The notes under the pieces: generated by a model
The model's input: the letters and a program-made list of their open reading frames with translations, nothing else
What the model was told of the DNA's origin: nothing
The model's database searches: none
Part shown: piece by piece, positions 35,265 through 52,838 of the stretch
How positions within the stretch are numbered: position 1 is the first letter of the stretch
How the letters are laid out: each line of letters starts with the position of its first letter
DNA from: Aquabacterium sp. NJ1
Lineage (GTDB): Bacteria; Pseudomonadota; Gammaproteobacteria; Burkholderiales; Burkholderiaceae_C
NCBI RefSeq assembly: GCF_000768065.1
Contig: NZ_JRKM01000001.1
Span: 310,001-374,000 of the forward strand
Length of the DNA: 64,000 bases
Direction of reading: 5' to 3'
Program-made: the position numbers and the translations under genes

Positions 35265-35288
35265 AAAGGCACCTTCGGGTGCCTTTTT
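35265..35288 (+). terminator. Terminator of the dnaK-dnaJ unit
   Basis: AAAGGCACC and GGTGCCTTT pair perfectly around TTCG and are followed by T residues. It begins 33 bases after the dnaJ stop. Confidence 0.88.
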
Positions 35289-35402
35289 CATTTGCCAACA
35301 TGGTTTTTCGGTCATCTGCCTCAAGTTTGTGCAAAGTCGTGCCGAAATGCGAAATGTGCTGGTCCACAAGGGATCGGGTTGACGCATGCCGAGTGAAACG
35401 CC

Positions 35403-37046
35403 ATGGCCATTCAGACCTCCAATTTCTCCAATATCCAGGCCCTGATCGTGGACGACATGCCCGTGCAGCAGTCGACCTTGCGGGGGCATCTGACCATGCT
35501 GGGCATCGCCAAAGTGGACGTGGCCAGCAACGCAGAAGACGCCACCCGGCTCATCAAGCAGCGCAGCTACAACCTGGTGCTGTGCGACTACAACCTCAAC
35601 CAGAAAACCGACGGACAGCAACTGCTGGAGTTCCTGCGTGACAACAGCCTGCTGACCGCTGACTGCCTGTTCTTCATGATCACGGCCGAGAGCAGCTATG
35701 CCTCGGTCGCATCGGCCACGGAACACCACCCTGACGCCTACCTGCTCAAGCCCACCACGGCGGCAGACATTGGCGACCGCCTCCAGGTACAGCTCGAAAA
35801 ACGCGCGGCGCTGCTGCCCATCTCGCAAAAGCAAAGCAAGGATGACCTGCCCGGCGTGCTGAGCGAATGCGACAAGCTGCTGGCCCAGCAGAACCGCTGG
35901 TTCATGCAGGCCTTGCAGATCAAGGGCCAGACCTTGCTCAAGCTGGGCAAGAACGACGAGGCCAAGAGTGTCTACCTGGCGGCGCTGGAAAAGCGGCCGG
36001 AGCTGGTCTGGGCCCAGTTGGGCCTGGCGCGCGCGCACAAGGCTGCTGGCCAGTTCGAAGAGGCCAAGAAGCTGGCGCAACAGATCATCCAGTCCCGCGA
36101 AGGCGAAAAGAACGTGGCCGCCTACGACGTGGTGGCCGAAGCGCTGGAAGCGCAGGGCGATCCGCAAGCCGCCATGTGGGTGCTGCGCGATGCGGCCACC
36201 ATCGTCCCATCGGCCCGCAGGCAGCGTGTCGCGGGCGAAAGCGCCTACCGCAACGGCGACCTGGACACCGCCAAGACCATGCTGCAGAAGGCCACCAAGG
36301 CCACCCGAGGTTCGGTTGTGGCGCAGGTGCAGGACACCTTGCTGCTGGCCCAGGCCATGGTGGATCTCGGCGAATCGGCCGACGCGGTCAAGGTGCTGAA
36401 GGACGCCACGCCGGCCAACCAGACCAACCCGACGTTCGCCAATGTGGCCTTGGCCATCCAGGCTCAAGCAGAAGCCAAGGCCGGCCGGCCCGAAGAGGCC
36501 CGCAAGCTGCTGGACAAGGCCCGCGCGTCCATGCGCAGTGGCCGCGCTGACTTTGCCTCTGTGGCGCTGGCCAAGGCGGAGTTGATGAGTGGCAACGTCG
36601 AGGCCGGGCTGGAGCTGCTGAGCAGCACCGTCAGCGCCGACCACGAAAACCCCCGCATCAAGCAGATGGTCGCCAACACCCTGCGCGAAACCGGCCACGA
36701 GGACAAGGTCGGCGACATCGTGGAAGGCGGCACCGCCCTGCTGGAAAGCAAGGTCCAGGATGCGCGCAAGCTGTTCAGAGACAGCCAGATCGACGAAGCC
36801 GTGCGCGCCATCGAAAACGCCGTGCAGACCTACCCGGAAAACACCGGCGTCCTGCTGCAGGCAGCCCAGCTCAACTGCATGGCGCTGCGCCTCAAGAAGG
36901 CGTACAACACCGAGATGATCGATCGCGTGCAGCTCTACCTCACGCGCCTTGAAAAACTGATGCCCGCCAACGACCGTGTGGTCATGATGCGCCGTTACTT
37001 CCGCGAAACCCTGAACGCGCTGGAAGCCCTGCCCGCCCAGGCCTGA
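35403..37046 (+). CDS. Receiver-domain protein with TPR repeats (first of module)
   Basis: This 547-residue protein has an N-terminal response-regulator receiver domain and a long helical TPR region instead of a DNA-binding output. The receiver has a full active site: Asp17 and Asp18, phosphoacceptor Asp62 (LVLCDYNL), Thr94 and Lys116 (LLKP). From about 145 to 520 the protein is built of TPR-like helix pairs, such as LLKLGKNDEAKSVYLAALE, so it probably acts through protein contacts. The kinase gene follows after six bases, which suggests the pair are partners. The pathway is not known. Confidence 0.85.
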   Translation: MAIQTSNFSNIQALIVDDMPVQQSTLRGHLTMLGIAKVDVASNAEDATRLIKQRSYNLVLCDYNLNQKTDGQQLLEFLRDNSLLTADCLFFMITAESSYASVASATEHHPDAYLLKPTTAADIGDRLQVQLEKRAALLPISQKQSKDDLPGVLSECDKLLAQQNRWFMQALQIKGQTLLKLGKNDEAKSVYLAALEKRPELVWAQLGLARAHKAAGQFEEAKKLAQQIIQSREGEKNVAAYDVVAEALEAQGDPQAAMWVLRDAATIVPSARRQRVAGESAYRNGDLDTAKTMLQKATKATRGSVVAQVQDTLLLAQAMVDLGESADAVKVLKDATPANQTNPTFANVALAIQAQAEAKAGRPEEARKLLDKARASMRSGRADFASVALAKAELMSGNVEAGLELLSSTVSADHENPRIKQMVANTLRETGHEDKVGDIVEGGTALLESKVQDARKLFRDSQIDEAVRAIENAVQTYPENTGVLLQAAQLNCMALRLKKAYNTEMIDRVQLYLTRLEKLMPANDRVVMMRRYFRETLNALEALPAQA

Positions 37047-37052
37047 ACCACC

Positions 37053-37673
37053 ATGGAAGCCGCCTCCTTTGCCCTGATCGCCCACGACCTCAAGAACGCC
37101 TTGGGGTCGCTGGAGGGCGAGCTCGAAGCGCTGATCGACGACCCCTCGCCCGCGATGGCGCACAGCGCCTACATGCGCTGCACCGAACTGCGTCGCCAGT
37201 TCGTGCAATTCCTCACGGTGTATGGCGCTGCCGACGGCATCCACACGCACTGCGAGGACGAGTCCCCCAAAGACCTGCTGGAGCAGATCTACCGTGCGGG
37301 GCAGATTCGCCGCCTGAGCCTGCCCCATGCACCGCGCGTGGCCATGCAAGTGCCAGAGAACGCCCCACCCTACTGGTACTTCGACCAGCGGCTGGTCCAC
37401 ATGGCGCTCGATGCGGCACTGCACAATGCCAGCCGCTTTGCACGCGAACAGGTCACGCTCGGCCTGCGCGAGGAAGACGGCTACCTCGTCTTCACCATCG
37501 ATGACGACGGGCCGGGGCTGGGCGCGGCAGATCCGTCCTCGGCATCAACAGGGCTGGGCACGGCGCTGTGCGAGGCGGTAGCGCAGGCCCACCGGTCGGG
37601 CGCCCGGCAGGGCCGCATTGACTTGCGCAACCGGCCCGAGGGGGGCGCCCGCTTCGAACTCTGGCTACCGTGA
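37053..37673 (+). CDS. Small soluble histidine kinase-like protein
   Basis: This 206-residue protein has a histidine-kinase core with no membrane segment or sensor domain. The H-box-like start is LIAHDLKNALGSL with His11. The ATP-binding domain has an N box (LHNASRF, Asn125), a G1 box (DDDGPGLG, 150-157) and a G2 box (STGLGTALC, 165-173). HDLKN at the phosphosite is the form seen in HisKA-type kinases. It lies six bases after a receiver-TPR gene and 70 before a second one, so it probably phosphorylates one or both. The input signal is unknown. Confidence 0.82.
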   Translation: MEAASFALIAHDLKNALGSLEGELEALIDDPSPAMAHSAYMRCTELRRQFVQFLTVYGAADGIHTHCEDESPKDLLEQIYRAGQIRRLSLPHAPRVAMQVPENAPPYWYFDQRLVHMALDAALHNASRFAREQVTLGLREEDGYLVFTIDDDGPGLGAADPSSASTGLGTALCEAVAQAHRSGARQGRIDLRNRPEGGARFELWLP

Positions 37674-37693
37674 CATTTGTGATGGCATGGTCT

Positions 37694-37726
37694 CACTTTT
37701 TCACGGATACCCGTGCTGAAAAAGTG
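37694..37726 (+). other. Inverted repeat before the second receiver-TPR gene
   Basis: Thirteen bases at 37694-37706 pair with 37711-37726 around ATAC, with a two-base bulge in the right arm. The outer arms are CACTTTTTC and GAAAAAGTG. It lies between the kinase gene and the second receiver gene and ends 17 bases before the latter's start. It may be an operator or an attenuator. Confidence 0.5.
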
Positions 37727-37743
37727 GGAAAGTCGGGCTCATC

Positions 37744-39411
37744 ATGAGTCTTCCTGCCTTTGCCACGCAAGCCAGACCGTTGGCCGGCATTCCGGTCAGC
37801 GACCTGAGCACGTGTCGCGCCCTGATCATCGACACCAACCAGACCTCGCGCAGCATCCTGCGCGCGATGCTGGCTGACCTGGGCCTTCAGACCATCACGC
37901 AAGCCGCCAAGATCAACGACGCGCGGCGGGCGCTGGAGACGCAGGCCTACGACGTCGTGCTGTGCGACTACCACTTCGACGACAGCAAGATGACGGGCTC
38001 GGACCTGCTGGACGACCTGCGTCGCGCCCAGCTCCTGCCCTACTCCACCGTGTTCGTGATGATCACGGGCGAAGCGTCGTATGTGAAGGTGGCCGAAGCG
38101 GCCGAGTCCGCGCTGGACAGCTACCTGCTCAAGCCACACACCTCCAATGCATTGGCCCAACGCCTGCACATGGCGCGCCACCGCAAGGTCGTACTGGGCA
38201 GCATCTTCGAGGCCATCGAGCGCGAAGAATTCAGCATTGCCGCCGAGCTGTGCCTGCAGCGCTTTGCCAATCGTGGCGAGTACTGGGTGTATGCCGCCCG
38301 CATTGGGGGCGAGCTGCTGCTGCGCCTGGGCCGCCATGAAGAAGCCCGCAAGCTGTTTCAGGCCATCGACGAGACCAAGGCCCTGCCCTGGGCCCGGCTG
38401 GGCATTGCCCGCGCCCAGCTCGATGGTGGCCACGCCCTGCCCGCGCGCCGCACGCTGGAGAGCCTGCTGTCAGAGAACCCGACCTTCGCCGATGCCTATG
38501 ACGTGATGGGTCGCGCCCAGTTGCAGGCCGGCTCGTTCGACGAAGCCTACGAGACCTACCAGCACGCCGCGGAGATCACCCCATCGTCCATCAGCCGCCT
38601 GCAGAAGGTCGGCATGCTGGCCTACTACCTGGGCCGCAATGACGAGGCGGCCCGCAGCCTGGAGCGCGCCACCAGCCTGGGCGTGTCATCCAAGATGTTC
38701 GACTACCAGAGCCTGGTCATGCTGGCTCAGATCCGTTTCGAGCAGAAGGACTACAAGGGTGTCCAGCGATGCCTGGTCAACCTGCAGCATGCCTACGAAA
38801 AGCAGGCCAACAGCGGGCGCCTGCGCCGCATGACCGGCCTGGTCAGCGTGCTGGCCTTGATGCTGCAGCGCCAGGTGGCCGAGGTGGTGCGCCTGGTCAA
38901 GGCCATGGTGGCCGACTTCGAGATGCCCGACTTCGACTTCGAAGCCGCCGGCAACATGCTGGGCCTGCTCACCCGCTTGCGCAACAACGAGCTGGAGCTG
39001 CCCGATGCCGAACTCTGGGTTCAAAAGCTGGCATCACGTTTTTGCATCTCCAAGCCCTCGACCGACTTGCTGGCCATGTCAGTGTCGGGCTTCAAGGCTT
39101 ATGGCGACCTCGTTCACGACGCTTACAAGAGCATCGTGGATCACGCGGAAAAGGCCCTGGAGCAAGCCAGAAACAGCGCACCTGGCGCTGGCGTCAAGAC
39201 GCTGCTGGTGCACGGTAGCAAGACGATGAATGCCAAGCTGCTGGACCTGGCCGACATGATGCTGAACCGCTACCGCGACCAGACCAAGGACGCCCCCATC
39301 CTGACCGAGATGGTGCAGGAGATGCGGGGCAAGTTCTGCCGAGGCAGCGCCCAGGTTCAGCTCGGCGCGAACACAGGGCGCCAGGCTGGCGCGCTCAACC
39401 TGCGCAACTGA
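37744..39411 (+). CDS. Receiver-domain protein with TPR repeats (second of module)
   Basis: This 555-residue protein is a diverged relative of the receiver-TPR protein at 35403. The receiver keeps Asp30, phosphoacceptor Asp75 (VVLCDYHFDD), Thr108 and Lys130 (LLKP). However, the second acidic-pocket residue is Thr31 (IIDTN) where Asp is usual, which should weaken Mg binding. TPR-like helices fill about 150-470, for example LLRLGRHEEARKLFQAIDE. No DNA-binding domain is seen. The stop codon lies in a 9-base tandem repeat. It is convergent with the decarboxylase gene. Confidence 0.84.
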   Translation: MSLPAFATQARPLAGIPVSDLSTCRALIIDTNQTSRSILRAMLADLGLQTITQAAKINDARRALETQAYDVVLCDYHFDDSKMTGSDLLDDLRRAQLLPYSTVFVMITGEASYVKVAEAAESALDSYLLKPHTSNALAQRLHMARHRKVVLGSIFEAIEREEFSIAAELCLQRFANRGEYWVYAARIGGELLLRLGRHEEARKLFQAIDETKALPWARLGIARAQLDGGHALPARRTLESLLSENPTFADAYDVMGRAQLQAGSFDEAYETYQHAAEITPSSISRLQKVGMLAYYLGRNDEAARSLERATSLGVSSKMFDYQSLVMLAQIRFEQKDYKGVQRCLVNLQHAYEKQANSGRLRRMTGLVSVLALMLQRQVAEVVRLVKAMVADFEMPDFDFEAAGNMLGLLTRLRNNELELPDAELWVQKLASRFCISKPSTDLLAMSVSGFKAYGDLVHDAYKSIVDHAEKALEQARNSAPGAGVKTLLVHGSKTMNAKLLDLADMMLNRYRDQTKDAPILTEMVQEMRGKFCRGSAQVQLGANTGRQAGALNLRN

Positions 39412-51550: not shown

Positions 51551-51671
51551 TGTTTTCGGATAGCGGGAAATCCCCACCCGCTTTCTGCGGCCTGCAACCT
51601 GACACTGAGTTGACCAAAGGGTCAAGCTTTTCCACACAATGCCGATAGCCCGTGAAACCTGTCGAGCTTTG

Positions 51672-52838
51672 ATGAACAAACCTCTCTGGCTGCAAGCGCT
51701 GTCAAATCTGTTGCTGGGCGTGGAACCGCATCGGCGTCGCCACGTCCTGCTCGTTCTGGTCACCTTGCAGCCCTACACCGTGAACCTGGGCGTGATCATG
51801 CACTCGGTTCACCTGGGGCTGCTGGACATCCGCGTCGCGCAAGAATTGACACTGGCCAGCGTGATCACCTTCCTGGCCGTTTTCGCGCTGGTGCGCTCCG
51901 GCTGGTCACAGCGCTTTGGCGACCCCGTCCTGACCTTCCCGCATGCGCTGGTGTCCATCGCCTTGTGCATGGTGGCCTACATCCAATTGGGTGAAAACCG
52001 TGCCAACGTGATGATCCTCATCGCGCAGACCATCGTCCTGGCCATGTTCCGGCTGCGCCCCATGCAAGTGCTGATGCTGGGCGTGTTCACGATCCTGTCG
52101 CTGGGCGCCAGCATCATCGGCATGACCGCCACCAACAGCCTGAACGGCAACGGTTCTTCGGTCTGGACGCACTTCGTGGTGGGCGGCTCCACCTTGCTGA
52201 CCCTGTCCTTGATCGGCAAATGGGTGAGCGACATCCGCATCCGCATCGGCCGCCAGGCCCGTGAACTGCAAGAGGCTGTCGATACCGTCAAGCAAATGGC
52301 CACCACCGACATGCTCACCGGCGCACTCAACCGCCGGATGATGACCGACATGGCCGAAACCGAGTTACGGCTGATCGAGCGCACCGGGGCACCGATGTGC
52401 GTGGCCCTGATCGACATCGACCATTTCAAGCATGTCAACGACCACTTCGGCCACCATGCGGGGGATGCCGTGCTGCGGGGCGTCGCGCAGCACGCCCAAG
52501 GCCAGATCAGGCAGGTGGACAAGTTCTCGCGCTGGGGCGGCGAGGAGTTCCTGATCATGCTGCCCACCATCGCATCTGCCGAGGCCATGATCGCCATCGA
52601 GCGGCTGCGCCAAACGGTGGAGACGCTGAACTTCCCTGGTTACCCGCAGCTGAGGATCACCTTCTCGGCCGGCCTCGCGCAAGCGCTGCCGGGCGAATCG
52701 CTGGAACACCTCATCGAACGTGCCGACCAGGCGCTGTATGACGCCAAACACCAGGGGCGCAACCGCTGCGTGCTCGCAGGCGCCGAACTCAAGCCCCTGA
52801 CCGCGCCTCAGGCCGTCTCCGGGGAGGCCTTGTCATGA
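51672..52838 (+). CDS. Membrane-bound diguanylate cyclase (GGDEF), first of pair
   Basis: This protein makes cyclic di-GMP. From the ATG at 51672 it has 388 residues; an upstream ATG at 51639 is possible and neither has a clear ribosome site. About six hydrophobic segments (residues 20-190) form the sensor. A short coiled linker (REL, then QEAVDTVKQMATTDMLTGALNRR) leads into the GGDEF domain. The active-site loop is GGEEF in SRWGGEEFLIML and the metal site DIDHFKHVND is intact. An RxxD inhibitory site is not evident. Its 3' end overlaps the next cyclase gene by four bases. Confidence 0.9.
   Translation: MNKPLWLQALSNLLLGVEPHRRRHVLLVLVTLQPYTVNLGVIMHSVHLGLLDIRVAQELTLASVITFLAVFALVRSGWSQRFGDPVLTFPHALVSIALCMVAYIQLGENRANVMILIAQTIVLAMFRLRPMQVLMLGVFTILSLGASIIGMTATNSLNGNGSSVWTHFVVGGSTLLTLSLIGKWVSDIRIRIGRQARELQEAVDTVKQMATTDMLTGALNRRMMTDMAETELRLIERTGAPMCVALIDIDHFKHVNDHFGHHAGDAVLRGVAQHAQGQIRQVDKFSRWGGEEFLIMLPTIASAEAMIAIERLRQTVETLNFPGYPQLRITFSAGLAQALPGESLEHLIERADQALYDAKHQGRNRCVLAGAELKPLTAPQAVSGEALS

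Follow-up and report, generated by a model that had tools for sequence, protein, structure and literature searches.

We examined a 64,000-nucleotide stretch of the Aquabacterium sp. NJ1 genome (RefSeq assembly GCF_000768065.1, contig NZ_JRKM01000001.1, positions 310,001 to 374,000 of the forward strand), hereafter the window, which carries three adjacent plus-strand genes for two-component signalling proteins (Table 1). The outer genes, RR1 and RR2, encode receiver domains fused to tetratricopeptide repeat (TPR) helices, and the middle gene, HK, encodes a small histidine kinase. The open reading frame (ORF) coordinates agree with the initial annotation of this DNA in placing 6 bases between RR1 and HK and 70 bases between HK and RR2. 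The genes dnaK and dnaJ precede the three, and a decarboxylase-like gene (ldc) lies convergent on the far side, all three flanking genes being assigned by eye. The three ORFs are not chance, because each has orthologues in the genus, with identities of 48–94% for HK, 63–93% for RR1 and 40–93% for RR2. Across genomes the conserved unit is two genes, RR1 and HK; RR2 stands outside it.

Table 1. Features of the RR1-HK-RR2 locus, in window coordinates
Feature	Position	Strand	Basis
RR1, CheY-like receiver fused to TPR superhelix	35403..37046	+	ORF, 547 aa; Pfam, model
HK, minimal histidine kinase (DHp-CA) without sensor	37053..37673	+	ORF, 206 aa; Pfam, model
RR2, receiver-TPR paralogue with degenerate receiver, optional companion	37744..39411	+	ORF, 555 aa; Pfam
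sigma-28 (FliA)-type promoter motif TCAAG-N15-GCCGAAA before RR1	35321..35347	+	motif count
Intrinsic-terminator-like hairpin after dnaJ, before RR1	35265..35286	+	pattern scan: 9 stem pairs, short T run
Stem-loop CACTTTTTCA/TGAAAAAGTG between HK and RR2	37694..37726	+	RNA fold

Pfam assigns a Response_reg domain to both regulators (RR1 residues 14–127, E 4.6e-15; RR2 residues 27–141, E 3.3e-15), together with many TPRs in RR1 (TPR_14, E 2.7e-26) and TPR_2 in RR2 (E 7.1e-11). Among the best 25 families for each protein, no DNA-binding or enzymatic output domain scored above the cut-off, as had been claimed for both. The structural model of RR1 (pLDDT, the predicted local distance difference test score, 88; 36-row alignment) runs from a CheY-like receiver through a long linker helix into 21 more helices, so that the receiver-plus-TPR architecture first read from the letters is borne out by Pfam for both proteins and by the model for RR1. 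A Foldseek search with RR1 returned only generic TPR superhelices (O-GlcNAc transferase, designed TPRs) and gave no hint of a partner.

For HK, Pfam finds HATPase_c at residues 111–206 (E 1.8e-10) and a sub-threshold match to HisKA at residues 6–31 (E 0.0029). The HK model (pLDDT 87.5; 44-row alignment) consists of a two-helix dimerization and histidine phosphotransfer (DHp) domain, residues 2–29 and 33–57, and a catalytic and ATP-binding (CA) domain, and its top matches in the PDB include HK853 and DivL. The DHp domain starts at residue 2 and the phospho-histidine is already at residue 11. HK can therefore have no sensor, membrane or input segment, and its earlier description as a bare 206-residue core is upheld.

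RR1 and HK were found to be conserved together as a pair. In the genus sample (37 genomes, the named relatives being mostly Aquabacterium, with presence of RR1 and RR2 taken as a match with E below 1e-100), both genes were present in 27 genomes and neither in 10 (Fisher 2.9e-9; here and below, Fisher values ignore relatedness, and genomes of a single genus recur). Among the named loci found through HK, which include Paucibacter, Roseateles, Ideonella, Rubrivivax, Herminiimonas and Oxalicibacterium, an RR1-like gene lay upstream in 66 of 67. Aquabacterium commune DSM 11901 and A. parvum B6 are among the carriers of the pair. One of these 66 (L112) has only an RR1-like piece of 150 aa about 670 bases away, and the 67th (L094) is on a contig that starts at HK. 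HK was present in 42 of 370 genomes of the class sample; 20 of these 42 matches were read as loci and 19 had a receiver-TPR neighbour, one of them split over two frames and two short, leaving L157 without. The order sample of 250 genomes gave 60 HK matches in 57 genomes, and 59 of the 60 were within 400 bp of a receiver-TPR gene on the same strand, in the order RR-HK in 40 cases and HK-RR in 19. The 60th match (G498) belongs to an ordinary two-component system, in which it forms the core of a HAMP kinase that follows an OmpR-type regulator. HK had no match in plasmids. A contig labelled Akkermansia muciniphila (L076) carries a Burkholderiales-type RR1-HK pair at 52–54% identity and is probably mis-binned.

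The residues expected of an active kinase and receiver are also retained. HK has H11, N125, D151, G153, G155, G167 and G169; in an alignment of the reference with 93 non-redundant HKs (94 rows), the phospho-histidine is present in 92 of the 93 alignable rows, and the N-box Asn125 and Asp151 are present in all 93. RR1 has all five canonical receiver residues (two acids, phospho-Asp, Thr/Ser and Lys) as D17, D18, D62, T94 and K116. In a first set of RR1-like receivers, 95 rows with the reference counted in, these five were complete in 87, and the remaining eight comprise three rows without the region, one fragment and four genes without an adjoining HK.

Receiver integrity goes with pairing in the order sample. 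The sample holds more than 150 receiver-TPR matches, and among the 150 listed the receiver was intact in all 59 of the HK-adjacent proteins compared with 25 of 90 lone ones (Fisher 8e-22). A receiver counted as ‘lone’ when the HK profile (E ≤1e-20) matched nothing on its strand within 400 bp, so that a diverged kinase could escape detection; the window's RR2 (DTDTK) was kept apart from the comparison. Among the matches listed, 63 of the 90 lone receivers have lost the second acid, and the phospho-Asp is replaced by Glu in 31 and by Ala in three. On a tree of the 150 rows, pairing changed at least seven times and integrity six times. One protein inside a paired clade (L185; G563:C3) has no adjoining HK match and has lost the second acid, possibly a recent kinase loss accompanied by receiver decay.

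The initial annotation had treated the three genes as a single module, and a phosphorelay in which one HK phosphorylates both RR1 and RR2 would fit the position of RR2 directly behind HK, seen in the source genome and in 10 other genus genomes. The distribution of RR2 is, however, independent of that of HK: the gene occurs in 20 of the 37 genus genomes, 14 of the 27 with the pair and six of the 10 without it (Fisher p 0.72). On this ground co-conservation of all three genes was rejected; the co-occurrence that had been proposed holds for RR1 and HK (27 of 27 in the genus, 59 of 60 in the order sample) but not for RR2. In five genus genomes (L050, L168, L169, L170 and L173), RR2 occupies the interval from dnaJ to ldc by itself, RR1 and HK being absent, and in G007 and G013 it is located elsewhere. 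One locus (L171; G010:C269:21-2872) has two RR2-type genes in tandem. In the source genome, moreover, HK and RR2 are separated by the stem-loop of Table 1: the fold of 37670–37745 has an energy of −27.7 kcal/mol (z −3.35), and the hairpin is, by eye, partly retained in L051 and was not seen in L053 or L054.

The RR2 receiver itself (D30, T31, D75, T108, K130) keeps the phospho-Asp, D75, but its second acid is replaced by T31. Among distinct RR2-like rows with letters at that position, 23 of 25 have likewise lost the second acid (T, G, S, A, V, P or H being found instead), and in seven of 25 the phospho-site is Glu; Asp remains as second acid in two rows, L044, which adjoins an HK, and L176. 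On the tree RR2 groups with lone degenerate genes from four other genera of the same family (L272, L278, L281 and L282), far from RR1. Because of this placement and of its occurrence without RR1 or HK, RR2 is best seen as a separate lineage that has come to adjoin the pair. Given its independent distribution, its grouping with lone genes and its lost second acid, RR2 is unlikely to accept phosphate normally from HK. We conclude from the sequences that RR2 is probably a pseudo-receiver TPR paralogue independent of HK, and the three-gene phosphorelay is very unlikely.

A feature that adds to the initial annotation is the motif upstream of RR1, which resembles the consensus of sigma-28 (FliA) promoters. 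It was first spotted by eye and was counted afterwards in 88 receiver-TPR loci, which remained from 94 once L055, L087, L089, L094, L157 and L161 were excluded (at L054, where RR1 runs off the contig, the DNA scanned precedes RR2). With at most one mismatch allowed, the motif was found in 39 of the 88 loci, 32 exactly and seven with one mismatch, compared with none for the reversed motif and two for the opposite strand; orthologous loci are not independent, and the 32 exact sites include 29 distinct ones. All but one of the 39 lie 20–120 nt before the receiver start, the other (L088) being at 308 nt and probably due to chance. Aquabacterium, Ideonella and Rubrivivax often have the motif, and the loci from Paucibacter, Roseateles, Herminiimonas and Oxalicibacterium lack it.

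Within the source genome, the GCCGATA form with a spacing of 14–16 gave 12 sites compared with one for the reversed control. Eight of the 12 precede genes for flagellin, FliS, two methyl-accepting chemotaxis proteins, three GGDEF proteins and one EAL protein; the other four precede ORFs without a Pfam match at 1e-5. The spacing at the flagellin site is the same as at the RR1 site. The motif thus suggests that RR1 is transcribed by sigma-28. A TCAAG-N14-GCCGATA site at window positions 51622–51647 shortly precedes a GGDEF gene whose end is at 52838; this gene is possibly another sigma-28 target.

The distribution of flagellin points the same way. In the order sample flagellin was found in all 100 genomes with a receiver-TPR gene compared with 70 of 150 without, and in all 57 genomes with HK compared with 113 of 193 others; in the class sample it was found in 38 of 42 HK genomes and in 172 of 328 others. 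One of the class genomes (G154) has the pair in a chemotaxis-operon position: cheA-cheB-ParA-CheW-CheW-DUF2802 precedes it, a GGDEF gene follows and fliK is close by.

The pair lies behind dnaKJ in the genus and in Ideonella, and it could be read as an extension of the dnaKJ unit with a heat-shock role. In three other loci (L043, L162 and L166), htpG (HSP90) is beside the pair, possibly by coincidence. Between dnaJ and RR1, however, there are both a terminator-like hairpin, which is retained in the relatives L051 and L052, and the separate promoter motif; the terminator scan is weak alone, with three sites in the region compared with 3.8 expected from shuffles. In addition, the loci from Paucibacter, Roseateles, Herminiimonas and Oxalicibacterium showed neither dnaK nor dnaJ next to the pair. 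A chaperone-linked module is therefore hardly credible.

Comparison of 42 loci revealed no constant third gene beside the pair. The most widespread neighbour family is the GGDEF/EAL group, in seven of the 42 loci; GGDEF or GGDEF-EAL genes adjoin the pair directly in the class-level loci L153, L160 and L165 and are further off in the four others. These are raw counts, and the neighbourhood can be taken as a hint only.

Taken together, we lean towards the view that RR1 and HK make up a two-component pair that is self-contained, belongs to the flagellar regulon and acts by protein contact. DHp-CA cores autophosphorylate and then pass the phosphate to a receiver aspartate, and TPR superhelices bind proteins. 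Action by contact is the natural reading of regulators that have neither DNA-binding nor enzymatic output, of a kinase without a sensor and of strict pairing with intact phospho-residues. The contact-based module put forward in the initial annotation thus survives for the RR1-HK pair, and falls as a three-component set with the independent and degenerate RR2. In the mechanism that we envisage, RR1 and HK would be produced once flagellar sigma-28 is active, and the soluble HK would autophosphorylate on H11 and presumably transfer the phosphate to D62 of RR1. The phosphorylation state of the receiver would then govern binding by the TPR superhelix, whose partner would most likely be a flagellar protein, a chemotaxis protein or a cyclic di-GMP (c-di-GMP) enzyme; we infer both this target and the direction of the effect. 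As it lacks an input domain, HK is probably controlled by a partner that binds it, and this partner may be RR1 through its own TPR domain; with the sensor missing, the input would have to be either protein contact or a change in abundance upon sigma-28 activation.

Several observations weigh against this interpretation. The promoter motif is far from universal: even when T[CA]AAG was accepted, 24 of 63 named, 17 of 18 class and seven of seven order loci lacked a site within one mismatch. The clearest exception to the flagellar link is G091 (L156), a complete single-contig genome with an intact pair and no flagellin match, which is a real counter-example; three more HK genomes have no flagellin match (G154, and the fragmented assemblies G145 and G339). 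In the genus, flagellin is present in 37 of 37 genomes, so the 10 without the pair are also flagellated, and absence of the pair is unlinked to absence of flagella. Annotated neighbours in other lineages are often housekeeping genes. The restricted range of the motif, the case of G091 and the flagellated genus members without the pair would be expected if the pair and flagella merely share a lifestyle, in which case the pair would do something else in motile bacteria and one lineage would have recruited the promoter. Against such an explanation stand the flagellin co-occurrence in the order sample, which is without exception for receiver-TPR genes and for HK alike, and the chemotaxis-operon position of the pair in G154. 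We regard it as unlikely.

Three further results tell against the interpretation or lend it no support. When corrected for the tree, the link between receiver integrity and pairing had about three contrasts that agree, none that oppose and two that are equal (p 0.25), on a tree that was quickly built from 164 columns and has long branches. Despite the lack of exceptions among HK-adjacent receivers, the evolutionary independence of this link is thus unproved, because so few independent contrasts are available. In one genus (g6, three of three genomes), HK has lost the histidine and several other catalytic residues while the receiver is intact. The HK homologue has Ser for the phospho-histidine in all three loci (L043, L287 and L288, from G041, G457 and G499), and judged by these residues g6 is a pseudokinase lineage of the pair. 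Finally, covariation between the DHp domain and the receiver missed the known specificity positions, with 4825 of 5000 random sets scoring as high, and so lent no support to cognate phosphotransfer. This analysis used 117 pairs (effective number 72) after loci with poor alignments were dropped; the positions (3 × 4) were located by their spacing, with the HK853/RR468 mutants that PDB titles mention as the guide, and the two DHp helix-2 positions were excluded.

A more specific version of the favoured contact-acting pair is a flagellar checkpoint, which we offer tentatively and think more likely to be wrong than right in its details. The input to the sensorless kinase would be a protein held on the TPR superhelix of its own receiver-TPR partner. 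The pair would be made only after sigma-28 release, and through it c-di-GMP enzymes or the motor would be informed of how the flagellum or chemosensory array stands. Lone pseudo-receiver paralogues such as RR2, with Asp changed to Glu or the second acid lost, would have escaped kinase control and be held in a fixed state.

For the receiver-TPR class, these comparisons supply a dedicated minimal kinase, a regularity in receiver intactness and a process, flagella, to which the proteins may belong. The pair is a small, soluble and reconstitutable system for the control of histidine kinases by a docking partner, a question for which it is suited because its kinase has no sensor domain. It also yields concrete predictions on how motility and c-di-GMP are controlled in many Gammaproteobacteria, a class that in GTDB includes Burkholderiales.

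Among known systems, RR1 is closest to VieB of Vibrio cholerae. This receiver-TPR protein is reported to bind the kinase VieS and block both its autophosphorylation and phosphotransfer, and the D62E form to inhibit less (PMC4352251). A ‘VieB-like’ class of response regulators has been named in print (PMC2222644). The class shares with RR1 a receiver followed by TPRs, a C-terminal half without known homology and a conserved Asp 62, and VieB, like RR1, is described without DNA-binding or enzymatic output. RR1 also aligns to the receiver half of a receiver-TPR protein of Vibrio campbellii (L181; 33% identity over residues 3–213, E 2.8e-36), whose vie-like locus contains a hybrid kinase-receiver-Hpt protein, an SBP_bac_3 piece and an EAL piece.

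RR1 might accordingly be, in place of an output, a VieB-type inhibitor that binds and inhibits a kinase, HK or others, with phosphorylation by HK switching the inhibition, as a feedback brake on other flagellar or c-di-GMP signalling. The D62-controlled inhibition by VieB, the V. campbellii alignment, the frequent Glu at the phospho-site of the lone receivers listed and the GGDEF/EAL genes near the pair all favour this possibility. On the other side, VieB sits with the transmembrane hybrid kinase VieS and the EAL-type regulator VieA, whereas the conserved partner of RR1 is a 206-aa kinase core and its neighbours in the window are dnaKJ and the decarboxylase-like gene. No VieS- or VieA-type neighbour occurs at the window locus, and none was seen elsewhere among the annotated neighbours, which are a part of all neighbours there. 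A dedicated and strictly conserved kinase also exceeds what a VieB-type protein needs. We therefore hold the inhibitor model to be doubtful, though well worth keeping in mind as the main rival of the favoured self-contained pair.

The pair can also be set beside orthodox two-component systems of the HK853-RR468 and EnvZ-OmpR types, with which it shares the DHp-CA fold, the H, N, G1 and G2 motifs and adjoining cognate genes. As in those systems, both partners are catalytically complete, the g6 kinase excepted; unlike them, the pair has no sensor, HAMP domain, input helix or DNA-binding output. Rap phosphatases are separate proteins that act on receivers, whereas in RR1 the receiver is fused to the TPRs. 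Like RR1, they are TPR-type proteins that act on two-component partners by contact (PMC3035606). RcbAB of Vibrio vulnificus is, like RR1-HK, a two-gene operon, and its TPR proteins act at the flagellar pole to tune c-di-GMP and motility; RcbA and RcbB are described with TPR and GGDEF domains, and the main text mentions neither a ‘receiver’ nor a ‘histidine kinase’ (PMC12282931).

Our literature search, which left most subscription journals outside its reach, returned no report of a sensorless kinase core whose gene is paired with one for a receiver-TPR protein, and the one biochemical study of the receiver-TPR class that it found concerns VieB as a kinase inhibitor. The initial view that the locus matches no described system therefore has to be divided: the architecture belongs to the published VieB-like class (PMC4352251, PMC2222644), and the pairing with a kinase is unreported within that search.

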